This document shows positions 55,574 to 63,705 of a stretch of DNA of 64,000 nucleotides, piece after piece; positions within the stretch are counted from its first letter, which is position 1, and each line of letters opens with the position of its first letter. The DNA comes from Qipengyuania pacifica (GTDB lineage: Bacteria; Pseudomonadota; Alphaproteobacteria; Sphingomonadales; Sphingomonadaceae). The notes beneath the pieces were generated by a model, which was given only the letters and a program-made list of their open reading frames with translations, searched no databases and was not told the DNA's origin. The stretch lies in the NCBI RefSeq assembly GCF_019857205.1, contig NZ_JAHWXO010000007.1:124001-188000 (forward strand), given 5' to 3'. The position numbers were made by a program, and so were the translations under genes.

Positions 55574-55822
55574 ATGTTCACGCAATTGCAGACGCCCCTT
55601 CCGGTTCATGTGATCGGCAAAGGCGCGGGGCTGGCTTTCGCAGTGATCGATTATGGCGCGGAGCATAATCTGATATGGGTGACTGCCCTGGATGAGGGCG
55701 GCGAAATCTGGTGTGCACCCAACCCGAAGGTGCGGGTCGCGGAGAACTGGTCGCTAGGTCGTAGCAGGGACTCGATAGCTGGCGCCGACAGTCTTGCTGC
55801 CCCGGAGGGTTATACCCCTTGA
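55574..55822 (+). CDS. Small conserved-looking protein of unknown function
   Basis: This 82-residue soluble protein (VIDYGAEHNLIWVTALDEGGEIWCAPNPKVR near the middle) belongs to no family I can name. Its stop overlaps the TTG start of the following glycosyltransferase (TTGA), and a GGAGGG site for that gene lies at its end, so it is co-translated with it. The 243 nt before it hold no other gene and should include its promoter. Confidence 0.6.
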   Translation: MFTQLQTPLPVHVIGKGAGLAFAVIDYGAEHNLIWVTALDEGGEIWCAPNPKVRVAENWSLGRSRDSIAGADSLAAPEGYTP

Positions 55823-56919
55823 ACCAGAAACCGATTGCCTTCTTCGCCCATCATCAGGGCCGGGGCCACGCAAACCGGATAATGGCGATCTCCAAACACA
55901 TTCCTCCCGAAAGACCTATCACCATTTTGACTGCGAAACCGGGGCAGTTTGAAAGCCTACCTCGCGAGGCTGAGCTCGTCCGGCTCCCGGACATGATCGG
56001 CGCGCCATCGCGATCCAAAGCCTTGCACGACCAGGCGACACCATCCGTTCTGCATTGCGTTCCGCTCGGCGTAGACGAGATGCGCGATCATATGGGCATT
56101 ATCGCCCAAACCTTACGGGCCATCGATCCGGCCCTTTTCGTCATCGATGTGTCCGCGGAGATCGCACTTCTTTCGCGCATCATGAGCGTACCAGCCGTCA
56201 CGATCCGCATGCATGGCGATCGGTCAGACATTGGGCATCTCGCGGGATACGAAGCCTGTGTGGGCATGCTCGCGCCGTTCGACGACGCCATCGAACAGGA
56301 TAGCTACCCTGACTGGGCTCGCTCGCGCACCTTTTACACTGGCGGCCTCTGCACCACGAAAGATCCAATCCTCACGCGAGACGAAGCCCGCAAACGGCTG
56401 GACCTGCCGCTCGACAAGCCCATTACGTTGGTGATCGCAGGCGGCGGTGGATCGGGTACTCCATACGCTCCGTTAACCGTGGCTGCCCGGGCAGAACCCG
56501 AAGGTCTGTGGCTCGTTGCAGGCCCCGTCCACCGCGAAGGACATGAAACGGATTTCGGCAACCTGCGCGAACTCGGATGGATCGATAATCTGACGGAGTT
56601 TCTGTGTGCGGCAGACCGGGTCGTTGCATCGGCCGGCGACAATACGGTCCATGAGATCGCGAGAGCGGCCAAGCCTTTCCTCTGCATTCCAGAGTGGCGA
56701 TACTTCGATGAACAACAGGCCAAGGCTGCCGAGTTGGCCCGAGTAGGTGCCGCCATCCACCTCAACACTTGGCCAGCTTCGATACCAGACTGGCAACGTG
56801 CGCTCGCAGACACGGACGGGCTGGATGATTCGAGGCTCGCGACCCTTCACGACGAGGAGGCTGCGCAGAAGGCGGCGCAATGGCTGGAAAGCGAAGCGCG
56901 CCGTTTATGGGCTAACTGA
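55819..56919 (+). CDS. GT-B fold glycosyltransferase
   Basis: The 366-residue protein starts at TTG 55819 behind GGAGGG. An N-terminal Rossmann half has FFAHHQGRGHANRIMAI. The C-terminal half has a nucleotide-sugar-binding region (LWLVAGPVHREG, ELGWIDNLTEFLCAADRVVASAGDNTVHEIARAAKPFLCIP) resembling MurG or UDP-glycosyltransferases. Donor and acceptor are unknown. It lies beside a GT2 enzyme and sucrose synthesis genes on the opposite strand, with which it converges (8-nt overlap). Confidence 0.82.
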   Translation: MNQKPIAFFAHHQGRGHANRIMAISKHIPPERPITILTAKPGQFESLPREAELVRLPDMIGAPSRSKALHDQATPSVLHCVPLGVDEMRDHMGIIAQTLRAIDPALFVIDVSAEIALLSRIMSVPAVTIRMHGDRSDIGHLAGYEACVGMLAPFDDAIEQDSYPDWARSRTFYTGGLCTTKDPILTRDEARKRLDLPLDKPITLVIAGGGGSGTPYAPLTVAARAEPEGLWLVAGPVHREGHETDFGNLRELGWIDNLTEFLCAADRVVASAGDNTVHEIARAAKPFLCIPEWRYFDEQQAKAAELARVGAAIHLNTWPASIPDWQRALADTDGLDDSRLATLHDEEAAQKAAQWLESEARRLWAN

Positions 56920-57799
56920 AACGGACTTCCGGCCCCTGCGTTGTCTTGGCAATCTCTGACGCTGTTGGATGGCGGATCACGGTCAGCTTATCCGCATCAC
57001 GCTCTATCAATCCGCGACGTGCGAAATCGTCCAGCCAGTAATCCATGCACCACTCATGCCAGCAATCGTGGAAAAGCGTCGCATTGCGGACAATGCTCTC
57101 GAAATGCTGGAGAGGCGGTTTGTTGATTGTGTGATGCTGATGGTAACATACCGTACCCCCCAGCCAGTAAAGTTCGGCTCCGGCTCTTTCGAGGCGGCGA
57201 CCGAAATCCGTTTCTTCCGCGCCATAGCCGACGTATCGTTCATCCATGCCTCCTGCGCTGTCCCACGTCTTTCCTATAAGGATGAAGGCAAGACCCCAGA
57301 TTTCACCAAAGTCCTGAATAGCCCTGGTTGCGCACATGGAAAGGTCGGGTTTCGCCGGGTGGCGCTTGCCTGCCCATTCGAGTTTGGTGACATCAGGCGC
57401 GCGCTGCGTGTGGTCCAGCCAGCCGTCCGGATTACCTGGAAGGTAGCGGACCTCGGGCAGAAAGACGCCATCGGGAAGTTGGTCGACGGCTTCGATCGCG
57501 CGTTTCACAAAGTTTCGATCAGGGATGCAGTCGACATCTAGAAAGGCCAGAATTTCTCCTTCCGCCTGATCGGCCGCATGGTTTCGCGCTTTGGCCAGCG
57601 GGAGGGCATCGCCATCGATTTGCAGCAGACGAATAGGGAACGGACAGTCTGGAGGAACTCGAGGCGCTAGGTCCTGCATGAAAGCGACGACCAGTTCGTC
57701 CGGCATTCTCGCCTGCGCGCATAGCCCGGCAATCAGATGATCCAGATGCACTTGGCGTCCCCGCACCAGCGTGAGCACAGATACCGAGCGGTACGTCAT
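56912..57799 (-). CDS. Family 2 glycosyltransferase
   Basis: The 295-residue GT-A enzyme has an N-terminal SVLTLVRGRQVHLDHLIAGL, a DxD-like metal site in FLDVDCIPDRNF (near residue 93), and the C-terminal acceptor block GGMDERYVGYGAEETDFGRRLERAG typical of galactosyltransferase-like GT2/GT7 domains. The His/Trp-rich region near 245 is unusual. Its start overlaps the stop of the sucrose-phosphatase part upstream (ATGA). The product sugar and acceptor are unknown. Confidence 0.85.
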   Translation of the reverse strand: MTYRSVSVLTLVRGRQVHLDHLIAGLCAQARMPDELVVAFMQDLAPRVPPDCPFPIRLLQIDGDALPLAKARNHAADQAEGEILAFLDVDCIPDRNFVKRAIEAVDQLPDGVFLPEVRYLPGNPDGWLDHTQRAPDVTKLEWAGKRHPAKPDLSMCATRAIQDFGEIWGLAFILIGKTWDSAGGMDERYVGYGAEETDFGRRLERAGAELYWLGGTVCYHQHHTINKPPLQHFESIVRNATLFHDCWHEWCMDYWLDDFARRGLIERDADKLTVIRHPTASEIAKTTQGPEVRFS

Positions 57800-58263
57800 T
57801 GCCAGTGCCCGGCCTCGCTGTAGTGGCGGACCCCCTCAAGCACTCCCCCAGCGTGGGTAGCAGATGCCATATAGGCATGGGAGAGCGCGGGATCATCGCC
57901 GAGGCCGTCACTCCAGTTGCCGACGATGATGGGATGAGGACATGCGCGGAGCATGGCCCGGTCGTTCCCGCTGTCGCCTGCCACGACTACCTGCGATTGA
58001 GTCATGCCCAGCGCATCTGCAACATGCAGAACGGCGGCGTGTTTTCCCACGCCTCTGGCCAGGATATCCAGATATCGGCCATGACTGGCGACGATCTCGA
58101 TATCCAAACCGGCGTCGTGCATGGTTCGGCGGATTTCTTCCGGATCGTGATCGTCGAGGAAGTAACTCGCCTTGCCCTTGCGCTGTTCGAGTGGCGCCTG
58201 GGGGCGAAGGCCCAGGTCTCTGGCCAAGCATTCTATTGCTTCACCTCGCCAATCCCGCGCCAC
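57796..58263 (-). pseudogene. Sucrose-phosphate phosphatase part, separated by in-frame stop
   Basis: The 155-residue frame from GTG 58263 is the C-terminal half of a HAD-IIB sucrose-6-phosphate phosphatase (KASYFLDD, GRYLDILARGVGKHAAV, VVAGDSGNDRAML). It is in the same frame as the gene ending at 58273 and is separated from it by one TGA (58275-58273) and three codons. The N-terminal half of the HAD domain, with its nucleophile Asp, lies upstream of that stop. Either the fused gene has a nonsense mutation, possibly TGG to TGA, or the two parts are made separately by reinitiation or readthrough. Confidence 0.75.
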
Positions 58264-58272
58264 GTACTTTGC

Positions 58273-59841
58273 TCATGCGCTGTCTTCCGCATAGCTTCGC
58301 GTCGCGGGATCATACCAATGAATTTGGCTGCCCACGCTGCTGATGATGACGTTCGGCGTGGGAACTCCTTCTGCTGCCAGTATCGCCTGAGCGCTGTGAA
58401 AGCTGCGCCCGGTAGCAATTCCCAACGCGATCTTGGATAAGTTCTGAATTTGCCATTCGAGAAATTCGCGCAGCGCCGCCCGATCGCCCAGCAGGGTATT
58501 GTCGATGTCGCAGACAAGAAGCCGTCGATGCTCGCTGCGCGGCTTCTGAGGCTCAACCAGCTCGCGGATCAGCTTGTGATAGATGTGCGTGTGAGCTTCC
58601 CAGTCGTAGGCGGCGACTGCATCGCCTCCCGCCGATGCGTATCGAATCCATTCGCGTCGATTGGAGATAATCTCGAGACAGGCACCGGCAATCGCCGCTG
58701 GATCTTTGGGACAAACCAGAAGACCGTTCTTGCAGCGCTCCACGATATCGTTGGGCCCTCCACTATCGGTAGCAACTACCGGCAGACGCGCAGCAGCCGC
58801 TTCGAGCAGGGTCAGACCAAATGGCTCATTCAGTGCCGGGTTTACGAAAACGCCGCCACTCTCCCGGGCAAGAGCATAATAGGCCGGGATGTCTTCGGGC
58901 TCGTGCGATTTGGGATAGGCGACCTTCCCGTACAGATCGTGCGAATCGACCGCGCGGATAAGCTCCTCGCAGATCGACCGACATTCAGGCTCGAGATCGG
59001 TAATCCTGCTCCGGCAACCGGCAACGATGACCAGGTTCGCACGGTCTTGAAGAGACGGGTTGGACGCATATGCGTCTACAAGCCCAATCAGATTTTTCTT
59101 TCGAACCGGACGGGCGATGGCCAGAATGATGGGCTTTTTCGGATCTCGTAAAAAGCGCTCAACCTCTTGCTGCACCTTCGCATCTGGTGTCGCTCCTTCG
59201 AAGCGTTCCAATTCGCAGCCAGGGGGAATGACCCGGATCCGTCCCGCAGGGATCGAACCGTAATGCGCATACTGGGCTTCAGCCTCGTCGCGCGAACTCG
59301 CGATCACGGCGTCGGCGGCTTCCAGCGCCCTTTCTTCAATAGCTATTCGCCGCTCCAGCTCGTCATTGGTTCGGCCGTTGGCCTCGCGTTTGACCGCTCC
59401 CAGAGAATGTCCTGTGAAAACATAGGGAATGCCAAACACCTCCTTCGCGCGGCGAGCCAGAATGCCAGCGTCGGCGTAGTGCGCGTGGATAAGATCAGGT
59501 TTCCTACGGAGACCGCGAAGATAGGCGATGAAGGCATCGCACAGCTCGCGATGGCGATGGCGCAGGTCTTCCTTGGGAAGATAGGCTTCCTCGCCATCGG
59601 CAATCCGGACGAGACGCACCTTGTCATCACGCTCGCTCTCACCGGGTCGAAATTTATCGCCCAGTCGTGAATCCACGAACCCTCGCGTCACGAGATCGAT
59701 GCGGTGAACGGACGGATCTTTTGCGCTCGCGTCAGCAAGCTCCAGCAGATATTTGATGTGACCGCCGGTGTCCGCCGTCAGCCCATAGGGAACATCCTGC
59801 AAAGTGAGACACCCTTGGAGCGCAACGTGACAAATGAACAT
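58273..59841 (-). CDS. Sucrose-phosphate synthase with N-terminal half of the fused phosphatase
   Basis: The 522-residue product has a GT4 sucrose-phosphate synthase domain (about 1-425; GLTADTGGHIKYLLELA, HAHYADAG, the E-x7-E region NEPFGLTLLEAAAARLPVVATDSGG). It then has the first part of a HAD phosphatase (about 432-522; nucleophile motif LLVCDIDNTLLGD). It makes sucrose-6-phosphate from UDP-glucose and fructose-6-phosphate. The frame stops at TGA 58273 in the middle of the HAD domain and continues in the same frame as the 57796-58263 part. Sucrose is a common compatible solute. It is divergent from the GT4 gene at 59920. Confidence 0.85.
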   Translation of the reverse strand: MFICHVALQGCLTLQDVPYGLTADTGGHIKYLLELADASAKDPSVHRIDLVTRGFVDSRLGDKFRPGESERDDKVRLVRIADGEEAYLPKEDLRHRHRELCDAFIAYLRGLRRKPDLIHAHYADAGILARRAKEVFGIPYVFTGHSLGAVKREANGRTNDELERRIAIEERALEAADAVIASSRDEAEAQYAHYGSIPAGRIRVIPPGCELERFEGATPDAKVQQEVERFLRDPKKPIILAIARPVRKKNLIGLVDAYASNPSLQDRANLVIVAGCRSRITDLEPECRSICEELIRAVDSHDLYGKVAYPKSHEPEDIPAYYALARESGGVFVNPALNEPFGLTLLEAAAARLPVVATDSGGPNDIVERCKNGLLVCPKDPAAIAGACLEIISNRREWIRYASAGGDAVAAYDWEAHTHIYHKLIRELVEPQKPRSEHRRLLVCDIDNTLLGDRAALREFLEWQIQNLSKIALGIATGRSFHSAQAILAAEGVPTPNVIISSVGSQIHWYDPATRSYAEDSA

Positions 59842-59919
59842 GTGAAGACCCTTTCCAAAGGGTAGGATTCATTTATACATGCTAAGTTCCTGAAATAGCA
59901 GGCAATCTATGTTAGTTCT

Positions 59920-60957
59920 ATGCGTATAGCTCATGTCGCACCCGTGATTTATCCCGTCCCGCCGAAGACGTATGGCGGGACAGAGCGTGTCGTCGCCGAT
60001 CTTGCTTCGGCGCAGGCCAAAGCGGGGCATGAGGTCACTGTGTTCGCGCCTTGCGACAGTAGGCTAACGGACGTCGAAATAGTCGGGAGCTATCGCTCAG
60101 CCTCCGCATCTTCCGACACATATGGAAAATTGACGCCCGGCTTCCCGGCAGAATTGGAGGCGGAACAACTCGCCGATCTCGTAACGCGCGCTGCGCAGTT
60201 CGACGTCGTACACCTCCACGGCTCGGCTCATGCGAGCGGAGTATGTGCTGCACTAGGAATTCCGACATTTCGCACGGTTCACTGGCGAGCGGACGAACCA
60301 GATCACGTGCGACATTTTCAAAGCTTCCCGAAGGAACGGGTCATTGCAATTTCTCGGCGGCAAGCCTTGGACGTGCCTCGCGCCAACTTGGCGGGAGTGG
60401 TGCATCACGGCATACCGCTTGACCGGTACGCCTTCGGAGGCAGCGGCACTGACTACCTCGCCTTCCTCGGGCGAATGACTGACCAGAAACGTCCCGATCG
60501 CGCCATCGCGCTCGCCAGGCAGAGCGGTCTGACCCTAAAACTTGCGGGGCCGGTAGACCCCGGCAATCCAACATACTTCGACGACGTCGTTAAACCGCAT
60601 CTTGATGCCGCTATTCAGCACGTGGGCAATGTCACGGACGATCAGAAGCAAGGTTTTCTGTCGAACGCACTGGCCCTGATGTTCCCGATCGACTGGCCTG
60701 AACCGTTCGGCCTCGTCATGATCGAAGCCATGGCATGCGGAACTCCGGTTATCGGATGGGATGAGGGTAGTGTCCGCGAAATCGTCGATGATGGGGTAAC
60801 GGGTATTATCGTCAATTCGGTTGAGGAGGCGCTCGATCGTCTGCCGGAAATTCGCAACCTCGACCCTGCCATCATCCGCAAGACGTTCGAGCAACGGTTT
60901 TCGGCCGACAGAATGGCCCGCGAAATAACGGACCTCTACCGCCAGTTTGGCGCCTAA
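59920..60957 (+). CDS. Family 4 glycosyltransferase
   Basis: The 345-residue GT-B enzyme opens with IAHVAPVIYPVPPKTYGGTERVV (glycine-rich acceptor loop). The C-terminal half has YLAFLGRMTDQKRPDRAI and the E-x7-E motif EPFGLVMIEAMACGTPVIG. This is a typical retaining glycosyltransferase using a nucleotide-sugar donor. It is divergent from the sucrose-phosphate synthase gene with a 78-nt AT-rich gap and overlaps the Crp/Fnr gene tail-to-tail by 4 nt. The acceptor is unknown. Confidence 0.88.
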   Translation: MRIAHVAPVIYPVPPKTYGGTERVVADLASAQAKAGHEVTVFAPCDSRLTDVEIVGSYRSASASSDTYGKLTPGFPAELEAEQLADLVTRAAQFDVVHLHGSAHASGVCAALGIPTFRTVHWRADEPDHVRHFQSFPKERVIAISRRQALDVPRANLAGVVHHGIPLDRYAFGGSGTDYLAFLGRMTDQKRPDRAIALARQSGLTLKLAGPVDPGNPTYFDDVVKPHLDAAIQHVGNVTDDQKQGFLSNALALMFPIDWPEPFGLVMIEAMACGTPVIGWDEGSVREIVDDGVTGIIVNSVEEALDRLPEIRNLDPAIIRKTFEQRFSADRMAREITDLYRQFGA

Positions 60958-61697
60958 CGGTCGTCCAGTGTGTCCAGCGCCAGGTCGCCGTCGCCATACA
61001 GATAGTCGCCATCGAACTCGCCCAGCTTGTTCAATGCCGCCTCGTCTTGGATGACAATCCTGCCATCGCCTTGTGGATCGAGAATTCCGCGCTCACGAAG
61101 GTTTCTGAAGCTGCGATTGGCGTGGACCGAGGTAATACCACACGCTTCTGCATAATCGCGCTGCAACAGCGGAACCGGTAGATTGGTGCCATCAAAACGC
61201 CCGACGAATTTGAGCCGCTCGATTATCTCCGAAACCAGATGCGCTATCCGCCCCTCGGCATTGAGACGCCCCAGACGGAATATCCATTCCCGATGCATGG
61301 CCGCGTCGAGCAAGGTCGAAAACCACATCGCCCGGGCCAGATGCGGGAAACGCTCGACCAGCCGGGCGATCGCCGTGTGCGGCACTTTGGCCAAGGTTAC
61401 AGTATCGAGCGATGCCACATTGTGGTCGAGCCGTTTCATGGGAAAACCGTGCAGGTCGACGAAATCGCCCGTGACGTTCAGACCGACCAGTTGGCGTTCG
61501 CCCCGGCGATCATCGATATGCCGGAGCATCGTCCCTTCGATGATATAGTAGGAATTCTCTATCCGCTCGCCCCGCTCAACCAATGTTTTGCGCGGATCGA
61601 GTTTGACGACATCGACAACGGCATCCTCGAGAGCGCTCTTCTCATCCGCGCTGAGATCGTGTCGAAGCCTGCCTTTGAGGAATAGTTCGGTGCGCAC
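60954..61697 (-). CDS. Crp/Fnr-family transcriptional regulator
   Basis: From GTG 61697 (AGGGA site 7 nt upstream) the product is 247 residues; ATG 61751 is an in-frame alternative. It has an N-terminal cyclic-nucleotide-binding-type beta-roll (about 20-130; GERIENSYYIIEGTMLRHI, GDFVDLHGFPMKR) and a C-terminal winged helix (about 165-225; LLQRDYAEACGITSVHANRSFRNLRERGIL). No Fnr cysteine cluster is visible, so it is not an obvious iron-sulfur oxygen sensor. The target and ligand are unknown. Confidence 0.85.
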   Translation of the reverse strand: MRTELFLKGRLRHDLSADEKSALEDAVVDVVKLDPRKTLVERGERIENSYYIIEGTMLRHIDDRRGERQLVGLNVTGDFVDLHGFPMKRLDHNVASLDTVTLAKVPHTAIARLVERFPHLARAMWFSTLLDAAMHREWIFRLGRLNAEGRIAHLVSEIIERLKFVGRFDGTNLPVPLLQRDYAEACGITSVHANRSFRNLRERGILDPQGDGRIVIQDEAALNKLGEFDGDYLYGDGDLALDTLDDR

Positions 61698-61751
61698 AGA
61701 TAGTCCCTGTTTGTTCCACGCTTCGCTATCTGCCCGGCAGGCCGGTGTCAA

Positions 61752-62236: not shown

Positions 62237-63187
62237 TTACTTTAAATCATCGATATTCGTTCCAGCTTCTCTTCTTTTTGGCCGATAGTCTGGGAGGGGA
62301 GGATTTGATGTAATTCCCTCAACCTGAATATCTTCGATTTTTTCACTGAGAGGAGCAAGTTCGCGACTAAGTTCGCGAAGGTCCGTTTCACCTTCAACCA
62401 AAGAATCTTCGACCGCCGGAATGCCACTCCTTATCTGGGAAAGTTTGTTTTCAGCGTTCTGCACCCCCTCCCTGAATTGGCGAAGGCGTAGTTGCGCGAT
62501 AGCAGAAGCGCTCCGCCCTGAGATCCGCCGATCTGCATCTCGAAGATTATTTCCCCATCCACCAACCCTTTGCCCTAAGTCTAACAATCTTCCTTTTGTT
62601 GAGGCCAATCGTTCGTCCCAACCTTCGGCGTCCGATGCGAGTGCGGCCGTCGTGACTCGAAGCCGGACAAGATCGGAGGTGATCACCCGTTGCTTTTCTG
62701 GCTCCAGTCCTTCGTTCAGAGCGCGAATGCTATTTGCCACGGTCTCTACAGTGGCGGTCGCATCCCTCCCCAATAGTCCGGTTTCGTCCGCGGCGGGAAT
62801 GATCTTTTTTCCTGACTTGTCGGTGTAAATGCCCTCACGACCCCGTCGGCCCTCGAGCACGAGCGCAGCCTCTCCAGTTATCAGATCCGTGCTGATTGTC
62901 GCTTCAAGGCCGTGGACTTTCGCCGCAGAAGGATCGAGAGTCAGAACAACGACCACGTTTTCCGGTTCATTTTCCGCCAGACGGACCGATGTTACCTGTC
63001 CCACAGGGACTCCCAATAGTGTTACAGTCGATCCCGACTGAAGGCCTTCCACGGAGCGATCAAACTTGATCTGATATGTTTCCTGATTTGGTCTGGGATC
63101 GATTAGCCACATCGCGAAAGCGATGGTCGTAAGCATCAGAATGCCAACGATCCACGCCACTAGGGAGAAGTTTGCGTTAGTTTCCAT
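62237..63187 (-). CDS. MCE/MlaD-family membrane-anchored protein
   Basis: The 316-residue protein has one N-terminal helix (about 9-29), an MCE domain (about 38-120; YQIKFDRSVEGLQSGSTVTLLGVPVGQV, ATISTDLITGEAALVLEG) and a long, charged, coiled-coil-like C-terminal region (about 170-300). MCE proteins such as MlaD form rings that carry phospholipids between membranes, normally with MlaE and MlaF partners. None is present here: upstream is a truncated MarR gene, downstream a gene-free stretch. The DNA is less GC-rich than its neighbours. Confidence 0.8.
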   Translation of the reverse strand: METNANFSLVAWIVGILMLTTIAFAMWLIDPRPNQETYQIKFDRSVEGLQSGSTVTLLGVPVGQVTSVRLAENEPENVVVVLTLDPSAAKVHGLEATISTDLITGEAALVLEGRRGREGIYTDKSGKKIIPAADETGLLGRDATATVETVANSIRALNEGLEPEKQRVITSDLVRLRVTTAALASDAEGWDERLASTKGRLLDLGQRVGGWGNNLRDADRRISGRSASAIAQLRLRQFREGVQNAENKLSQIRSGIPAVEDSLVEGETDLRELSRELAPLSEKIEDIQVEGITSNPPLPDYRPKRREAGTNIDDLK

Positions 63188-63705
63188 CTAGCACGCCGCC
63201 AGCGGTTTGTTCGTCCGGCAGAGGGCCGGTGCAATGAAAGTTCGCGTCCCGCATGCTCCATTCGGTTGTCCGCTATAGAACATGACCGAGGTTCGTCCCC
63301 TGGCGCAATCGCCACGAGCGGGGCATCCGGGCGCGTCGAATGTGTTTTGGTTTGAGATCGGCCTAGTCCCAACACGGGCGTGATGCCGCCCCGCCCGTGG
63401 CGACCGAATATTGCTATGACTTGCGCAAGCCGCGTCCGGTCACTCAAGCGCGAAGGCGTCATGTCTTCCAGGCCGCTGCTGGAGGATGTGATTTCAAGTC
63501 TCCTGGCGATGTCCGTCTGGTTCAGGGCAGGAGCTCTGATGAGCTGCGCCAACACACGCCACTGCGTACGATTGAGGCTCAGCGGCTGTGCTCGGTCATC
63601 GAATGCCTTGCGCGCGGCGCGGCTGATCTGGTCCATCATGAAGATCGCTCGATCATCGTGGGTGATGACATTGTCGAGTGCGAGAGTGCCCTCATCTTCT
63701 GGCAT
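63160..63705 (-). pseudogene. MarR-family regulator, apparently truncated
   Basis: The 181-residue frame begins like MarR regulators (AIFMMDQISRAARKAFDDRA, LSLNRTQWRVLAQLIRAPALNQTDIARRLEI, residues about 20-72). After about residue 75 it turns into sequence with no recognisable wing or dimerisation helix. The last third is Arg/Ser-rich and overlaps the MCE gene start by 28 nt. I found no continuation in the two other frames just after the break. It is divergent from an EmrA-like adaptor gene, the usual place for an efflux regulator, so a functional ancestor probably controlled that pump. Confidence 0.6.

Follow-up and report, generated by a model that had tools for sequence, protein, structure and literature searches.

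The bidomainal sucrose-phosphate synthase (SPS) found in, e.g., Synechococcus elongatus PCC 7942 is described, in the portion of the source available, as a bifunctional enzyme with both SPS and SPP activity (PMC4390843). The glucosylsucrose synthase TeGSS uses UDP-glucose and sucrose to form glucosylsucrose; in Thermosynechococcus elongatus the TeGSS gene (tll1591) adjoins the SPS gene tll1590, according to the accessible part of PMC9909042. In-frame stop codons are widespread in bacteria and mostly short-lived, as stated in the sections available of PMC7918605. The locus described here belongs to a stretch of 64,000 nucleotides from Qipengyuania pacifica, referred to as the window. Like the bidomainal SPS as outlined in PMC4390843, its fusion gene encodes an SPS domain and, after it, a HAD phosphatase domain that retains the catalytic motifs, in a genome in which no other S6PP match was found. 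Unlike that enzyme, its phosphatase is broken by a single TGA, and both domains score below the NCBIfam cut-offs, as they do in intact relatives. The gene probably carries a genuine nonsense mutation of very recent origin at a tryptophan codon of a bifunctional-type SPS/phosphatase, leaving a protein with SPS function only. Literature searches on SPS with Erythrobacter, SPS and SPP with gene fusion or proteobacteria, bidomainal SPS (15 of 81 matches listed), and Erythrobacter with compatible solutes gave no account of the window gene among the matches listed. The available part of PMC10040529, on Erythrobacteraceae halotolerance, does not mention the gene either.

The fusion gene spans positions 59841-57796 on the minus strand. 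It forms a single frame from an ATG at 59841 to the terminal TGA at 57798-57796, with one break, the TGA at 58275-58273, which is codon 523; 522 amino acids precede it and 158 follow. The open reading frame 59841-58273 and the open frame 58272-57796 thus share their frame and are divided by this TGA alone. The first part (58276-59841, minus strand) contains the whole SPS glycosyltransferase domain (about amino acids 1-430). It also includes the beginning of the HAD phosphatase, where motifs I (D445, D447) and II (T477) lie. The second part (57796-58272, minus strand) holds the cap and the remaining phosphatase in 158 amino acids, with motifs III (K600) and IV (GDSGND), and ends at the natural TGA. 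The HAD motifs and their roles, with D445 as the nucleophile Asp, follow the usual assignment. By motif positions, compared between the window gene and 13 other loci, all of motifs I-IV are kept in the window gene. Pfam and NCBIfam identify the two parts together as SPS glycosyltransferase plus HAD sucrose phosphatase. The TGA cuts the match to the Pfam S6PP profile into positions 2-74 before and 87-245 after the stop, and reading through restores a match over positions 2-245. In sequence matches, the read-through protein aligns with the SPS structure 2r60 (E 2.3e-57) and with 1s2o, the structure of a cyanobacterial sucrose phosphatase (E 3e-32). The organism of 2r60, Halothermothrix orenii, was assigned via its sister entries in the available part of PMC4390843. 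The sequence-only reading had described a fused SPS-HAD gene with one in-frame TGA, and this is borne out by the frame and the domain matches. Under the bacterial code, the two domains stand in order in one frame, but the TGA at codon 523 prevents them from forming one unbroken chain. The NCBIfam equivalog cut-offs of TIGR02472 and TIGR02471 are missed, with 438 of 576 bits and 160 of 210 bits. These low scores were dismissed as a sign of damage, since all four intact relatives tested also fall below the cut-offs.

The residue lost at codon 523 can be read from the relatives. In an alignment of the window gene with 33 other loci, X was set at the stop so that no residue was presumed. The codon aligned to the TGA is TGG in 22 of the 33 rows, encodes Tyr in five and Phe in six, several rows representing the same genome twice, and an internal stop is absent from all 33. 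With duplicates removed, TGG is present in all 16 other distinct clade-1 orthologs, which are 68-77% identical to the window gene, while the Phe and Tyr codons belong to more distant fusions. Among 28 further family loci, TGG occurs in 11 and Tyr or Phe in 17, in an alignment that assigned Trp to the window row at this position and in which some loci resemble earlier ones. That the TGA falls on a position occupied by TGG and other aromatic codons is, judged from these alignments, far beyond chance. A Trp near the stop in related fusions, with TGG to TGA as the simplest change, had been proposed beforehand; the Trp lies exactly at codon 523.

At a threshold of E <= 1e-90, 38 of 397 family genomes contain a match, and an internal stop occurs only in the window's genome, eight of the 38 being listed as without a stop although their sequences were not fetched. 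Four other genomes list a stop at query position 681-682, which is the natural end, and all four frames proved open on checking. The search covered one genome per species, the nearest relative being 77% identical. The site is aromatic wherever it was seen, and, with sampling at the species level, no genome but the window's has the stop. Relative to intact orthologs, the frame is disrupted. The single stop with low dN/dS kept downstream resembles the short-lived bacterial in-frame stops of PMC7918605, as far as the source could be consulted, but the stops considered there are common to two or more genomes, whereas this one occurs in one genome only. The clade-1 gene itself is patchily distributed, with a match at E <= 1e-170 in 13 of 60 genomes of the genus, the window's included. 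In a set of 61 genomes, a full-length SPS fusion of clade 1 is listed for eight and one of clade 2 for 11. Both are listed together for none, as though each took the place of the other.

The sequence after the stop bears no mark of decay. A fixed tree with 17 sequences gives the window gene a terminal branch of 0.257 for the part before the stop and of 0.224 for the part after it, a ratio of 0.87; for the whole tree, the after/before ratio is 1.20. Among the columns that do not vary in the other sequences, the window gene differs at 3 of 221 in the SPS domain, at 2 of 53 in the HAD domain before the stop, and at 1 of 53 after it. A codon model of six of the 17 sequences gave an omega of 0.066 before the stop and of 0.08-0.10 after it (two printed values). 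The window branches in this model, 1.08 and 1.19, match those of the other five sequences. In pairs that include the window gene, synonymous sites are close to saturation. A rough Poisson bound, with an omega of 0.08 and an after/before ratio of 0.71, limits the neutral share of the window branch to about 5% or less; at the same ratio the bound ranges from 2% to 8.5% for omega values of 0.03 to 0.12. The ratio of 0.71 is the lowest after/before value among branches above 0.1. Because the nearest sequence shares only 77% identity with the window gene, the decay test is coarse in time, though strong against an old lesion. The short branch after the stop and the bound of about 5% rule out an old pseudogene. 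The claim that the downstream part is undecayed therefore holds, given the branch lengths, the intact motifs and the low omega. Neither relaxed selection nor a further lesion was found after the stop, and a very recent stop gives the same picture.

The lack of decay over the 158 codons past the TGA leaves a very recent stop, a sequence error, or continued translation through leaky decoding. Since neither acceleration nor lesions are found downstream, the stop is recent if it is real, and the event is most likely of an ordinary kind, a recent nonsense allele. The intact downstream part speaks less clearly for such an allele than it might, as it is equally expected of a gene that is still read through, and the other genes of the cluster are intact too. 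The main rival is that the TGA stems from a consensus or assembly error, or from a mutation in the cultured isolate, with the gene whole in nature. We regard this as unlikely, though it is the alternative to be taken most seriously: the stop is private to the window's genome, the gene is otherwise undamaged, and the draft assembly consists of 54 contigs, but the remaining cluster is full length and has no sign of poor sequence.

Leaky use of the codon ranks next, and somewhat lower in our estimate. Here, ordinary misreading of UGA as Trp would yield enough full-length protein, so that phosphatase activity would be lowered and not abolished. In E. coli, ordinary leaky UGA decoding inserts Trp at low frequency, and bacterial in-frame stops, though often short-lived, are often under purifying selection (both from the available part of PMC7918605). 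The pattern of purifying selection downstream of the window's stop fits this, although a recent stop explains it as well. An RNA stem predicted on the minus strand (z -2.5, window 58190-58290) starts 9 nt after the TGA, at a GTG, and is the strongest of 17 sequences; the same stretch in the 16 orthologs has z values between -1.2 and 1.8. This rules out a conserved recoding stem. The stem is peculiar to the window's genome; its rank as the strongest of 17 speaks weakly for a role, and it may have arisen by chance. Neither the stop nor the stem is conserved in relatives, which argues against leaky use and does not fit programmed UGA recoding.

The decoding machinery of the genome also appears ordinary. 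RF2 is present, with 512 bits against a cut-off of 370, and this too counts against leaky use. The tRNA-Trp is normal, with a five-pair anticodon stem, G24 and A9 (own numbering, and setting aside a second place with one mismatch), and corresponds to none of the readthrough forms given in the accessible part of PMC13092985, which likewise speaks against leaky use. For SelB, nothing in the genome exceeds the cut-off, the best match reaching 201 of the 242 bits needed. Of 11 tRNA-Sec matches, one passes the gathering score (49.1 versus 47), and ARAGORN identifies it as tRNA-Ser(TGA); five of 14 control genomes pass this score as well. Selenocysteine was therefore rejected as an explanation. A genome-wide reassignment of UGA was likewise discarded, since RF2 is present and the natural end of the fusion is TGA nearly throughout: in all aligned rows but L016, which has TAA, and in the clade-1 set with the further exception of L047, also TAA. 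In total, the search of the genome for suppressor or recoding machinery, comprising SelB, tRNA-Sec, an altered tRNA-Trp and loss of RF2, found none. It is very improbable that a newly gained leaky UGA, helped by the genome-specific stem, would set the ratio of SPS-only to full SPS-phosphatase protein and so throttle the flow of free sucrose to the neighbouring glucosylsucrose-synthase-like enzyme.

Another way to retain both domains would be translational reinitiation, which the sequence-only reading had suggested for a GTG 10 nt past the stop. An in-frame GTG does exist there (58261-58263, minus strand), but it begins at 58263, with 9 nt in between. A separate fragment of cap and core made from this codon would join the first chain to give a split phosphatase. 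The frame is open past the stop, and D445 precedes it, which agrees with the earlier statement that the nucleophile Asp would be on the first chain. The HAD cap topology was used to place the break relative to the cap. In a structure model, used only for this placement within the HAD part, the break lies between a strand (516-519) and a helix (521-528) leading into the cap, which would be a tolerable place; the model has a mean pLDDT of 70 and a pTM of 0.57, and means of 61-90 for 10-residue blocks over residues 441-680. The signals for initiation are poor. The 20-mer upstream of the GTG pairs with the anti-SD sequence at -1.9 kcal/mol, a value matched or beaten by 69% of random 20-mers of the window, and all 12 other gene starts of the window that were compared score better, the weakest at -2.0. 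The GTG itself is paired in the predicted fold. An ATG overlapping the stop opens a different frame that closes after 11 codons, for which reason the ATGA overlap was also rejected as a new gene boundary. With a poor ribosome site, a GTG within a stem and an ATG out of frame, the proposal of reinitiation is weak, and a split form was seen in none of the relatives examined. We consider a split phosphatase very improbable, the least probable of the explanations considered.

If the stop is a recent nonsense allele, translation would end at residue 522. The product would have a complete SPS domain and a phosphatase truncated at the start of its cap. Sucrose-6-phosphate would still be made, while its dephosphorylation would no longer be efficient. 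Three other Hydrolase_3 matches in the genome are short and partial; they cover 44-59 of 255 positions and lie within frames of 927, 346 and 786 amino acids. The genome also encodes the trehalose enzymes OtsA and OtsB, with genes about 2 kb apart; given their presence and the patchiness of the clade, loss of the sucrose route may be tolerable. As a nonsense allele, the finding would matter little past correct annotation. It could, however, reveal in a natural setting whether a fused SPS depends on a phosphatase of its own, as no second S6PP match was found in the genome.

The setting of the gene is of more interest than the stop, as a conserved Erythrobacteraceae cluster joins a fused SPS-phosphatase with a glucosylsucrose-synthase-like enzyme. 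Downstream of the fusion lies a gene for a GT2 family glycosyltransferase (56912-57799, minus strand), whose ATG shares bases with the fusion's terminal TGA (ATGA). With its start overlapping the fusion end, the GT2 gene would lose translational coupling, and a stop 474 nt earlier may thus lower GT2 as well. A GT28/MurG-like glycosyltransferase gene (55819-56919, plus strand) is the convergent neighbour. On the other side, a divergent GT4 gene (59920-60957, plus strand) is followed by a conserved gene for a Crp/Fnr-like regulator (60954-61751, minus strand). The SPS-HAD, GT2, GT28-like, GT4 and Crp-like genes, which span 55819-61751 in the window, all have relatives in 15 of 15 named loci, and a small open reading frame at 55574 has one in 11 of the 15. 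In a distant SPS clade, the GT28-like gene adjoins SPS in all 11 loci and the GT2 gene in 10, the exception being a locus that ends at a contig end, and the gene order differs from that of clade 1. The 1.5-kb flanks of these 11 SPS loci showed no separate TeGSS-like gene.

The GT4 protein aligns over its full length with TeGSS (7FG9; E 5e-62), with 127 of 332 aligned residues identical, and retains Tyr18 and Arg179, the two catalytic residues tested; by sequence it is glucosylsucrose-synthase-like. In keeping with the tll1590-tll1591 arrangement of T. elongatus, the GT4 gene lies beside the SPS gene. In contrast to that locus, the window GT4 gene is divergent from SPS, the SPS carries a fused phosphatase, and the GT2 and GT28-like genes are added (comparison with PMC9909042, as far as available). 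The homology to TeGSS and the gene neighbourhood suggest that the cluster probably makes a glucosylated sucrose. The affected pathway would then probably be glucosylsucrose synthesis, with the broken step, sucrose-6-phosphate to sucrose, probably feeding it. A literature search for glucosylsucrose together with proteobacteria returned no match. Farther along the window, an open reading frame on the minus strand (63160-63705) starts like a MarR regulator, and its Pfam match stops mid-domain (profile positions 3-36 of 61). Beside it, an open reading frame from 63739 onwards resembles, by eye, the start of EmrA/HlyD, and the regulator is perhaps truncated or decayed.
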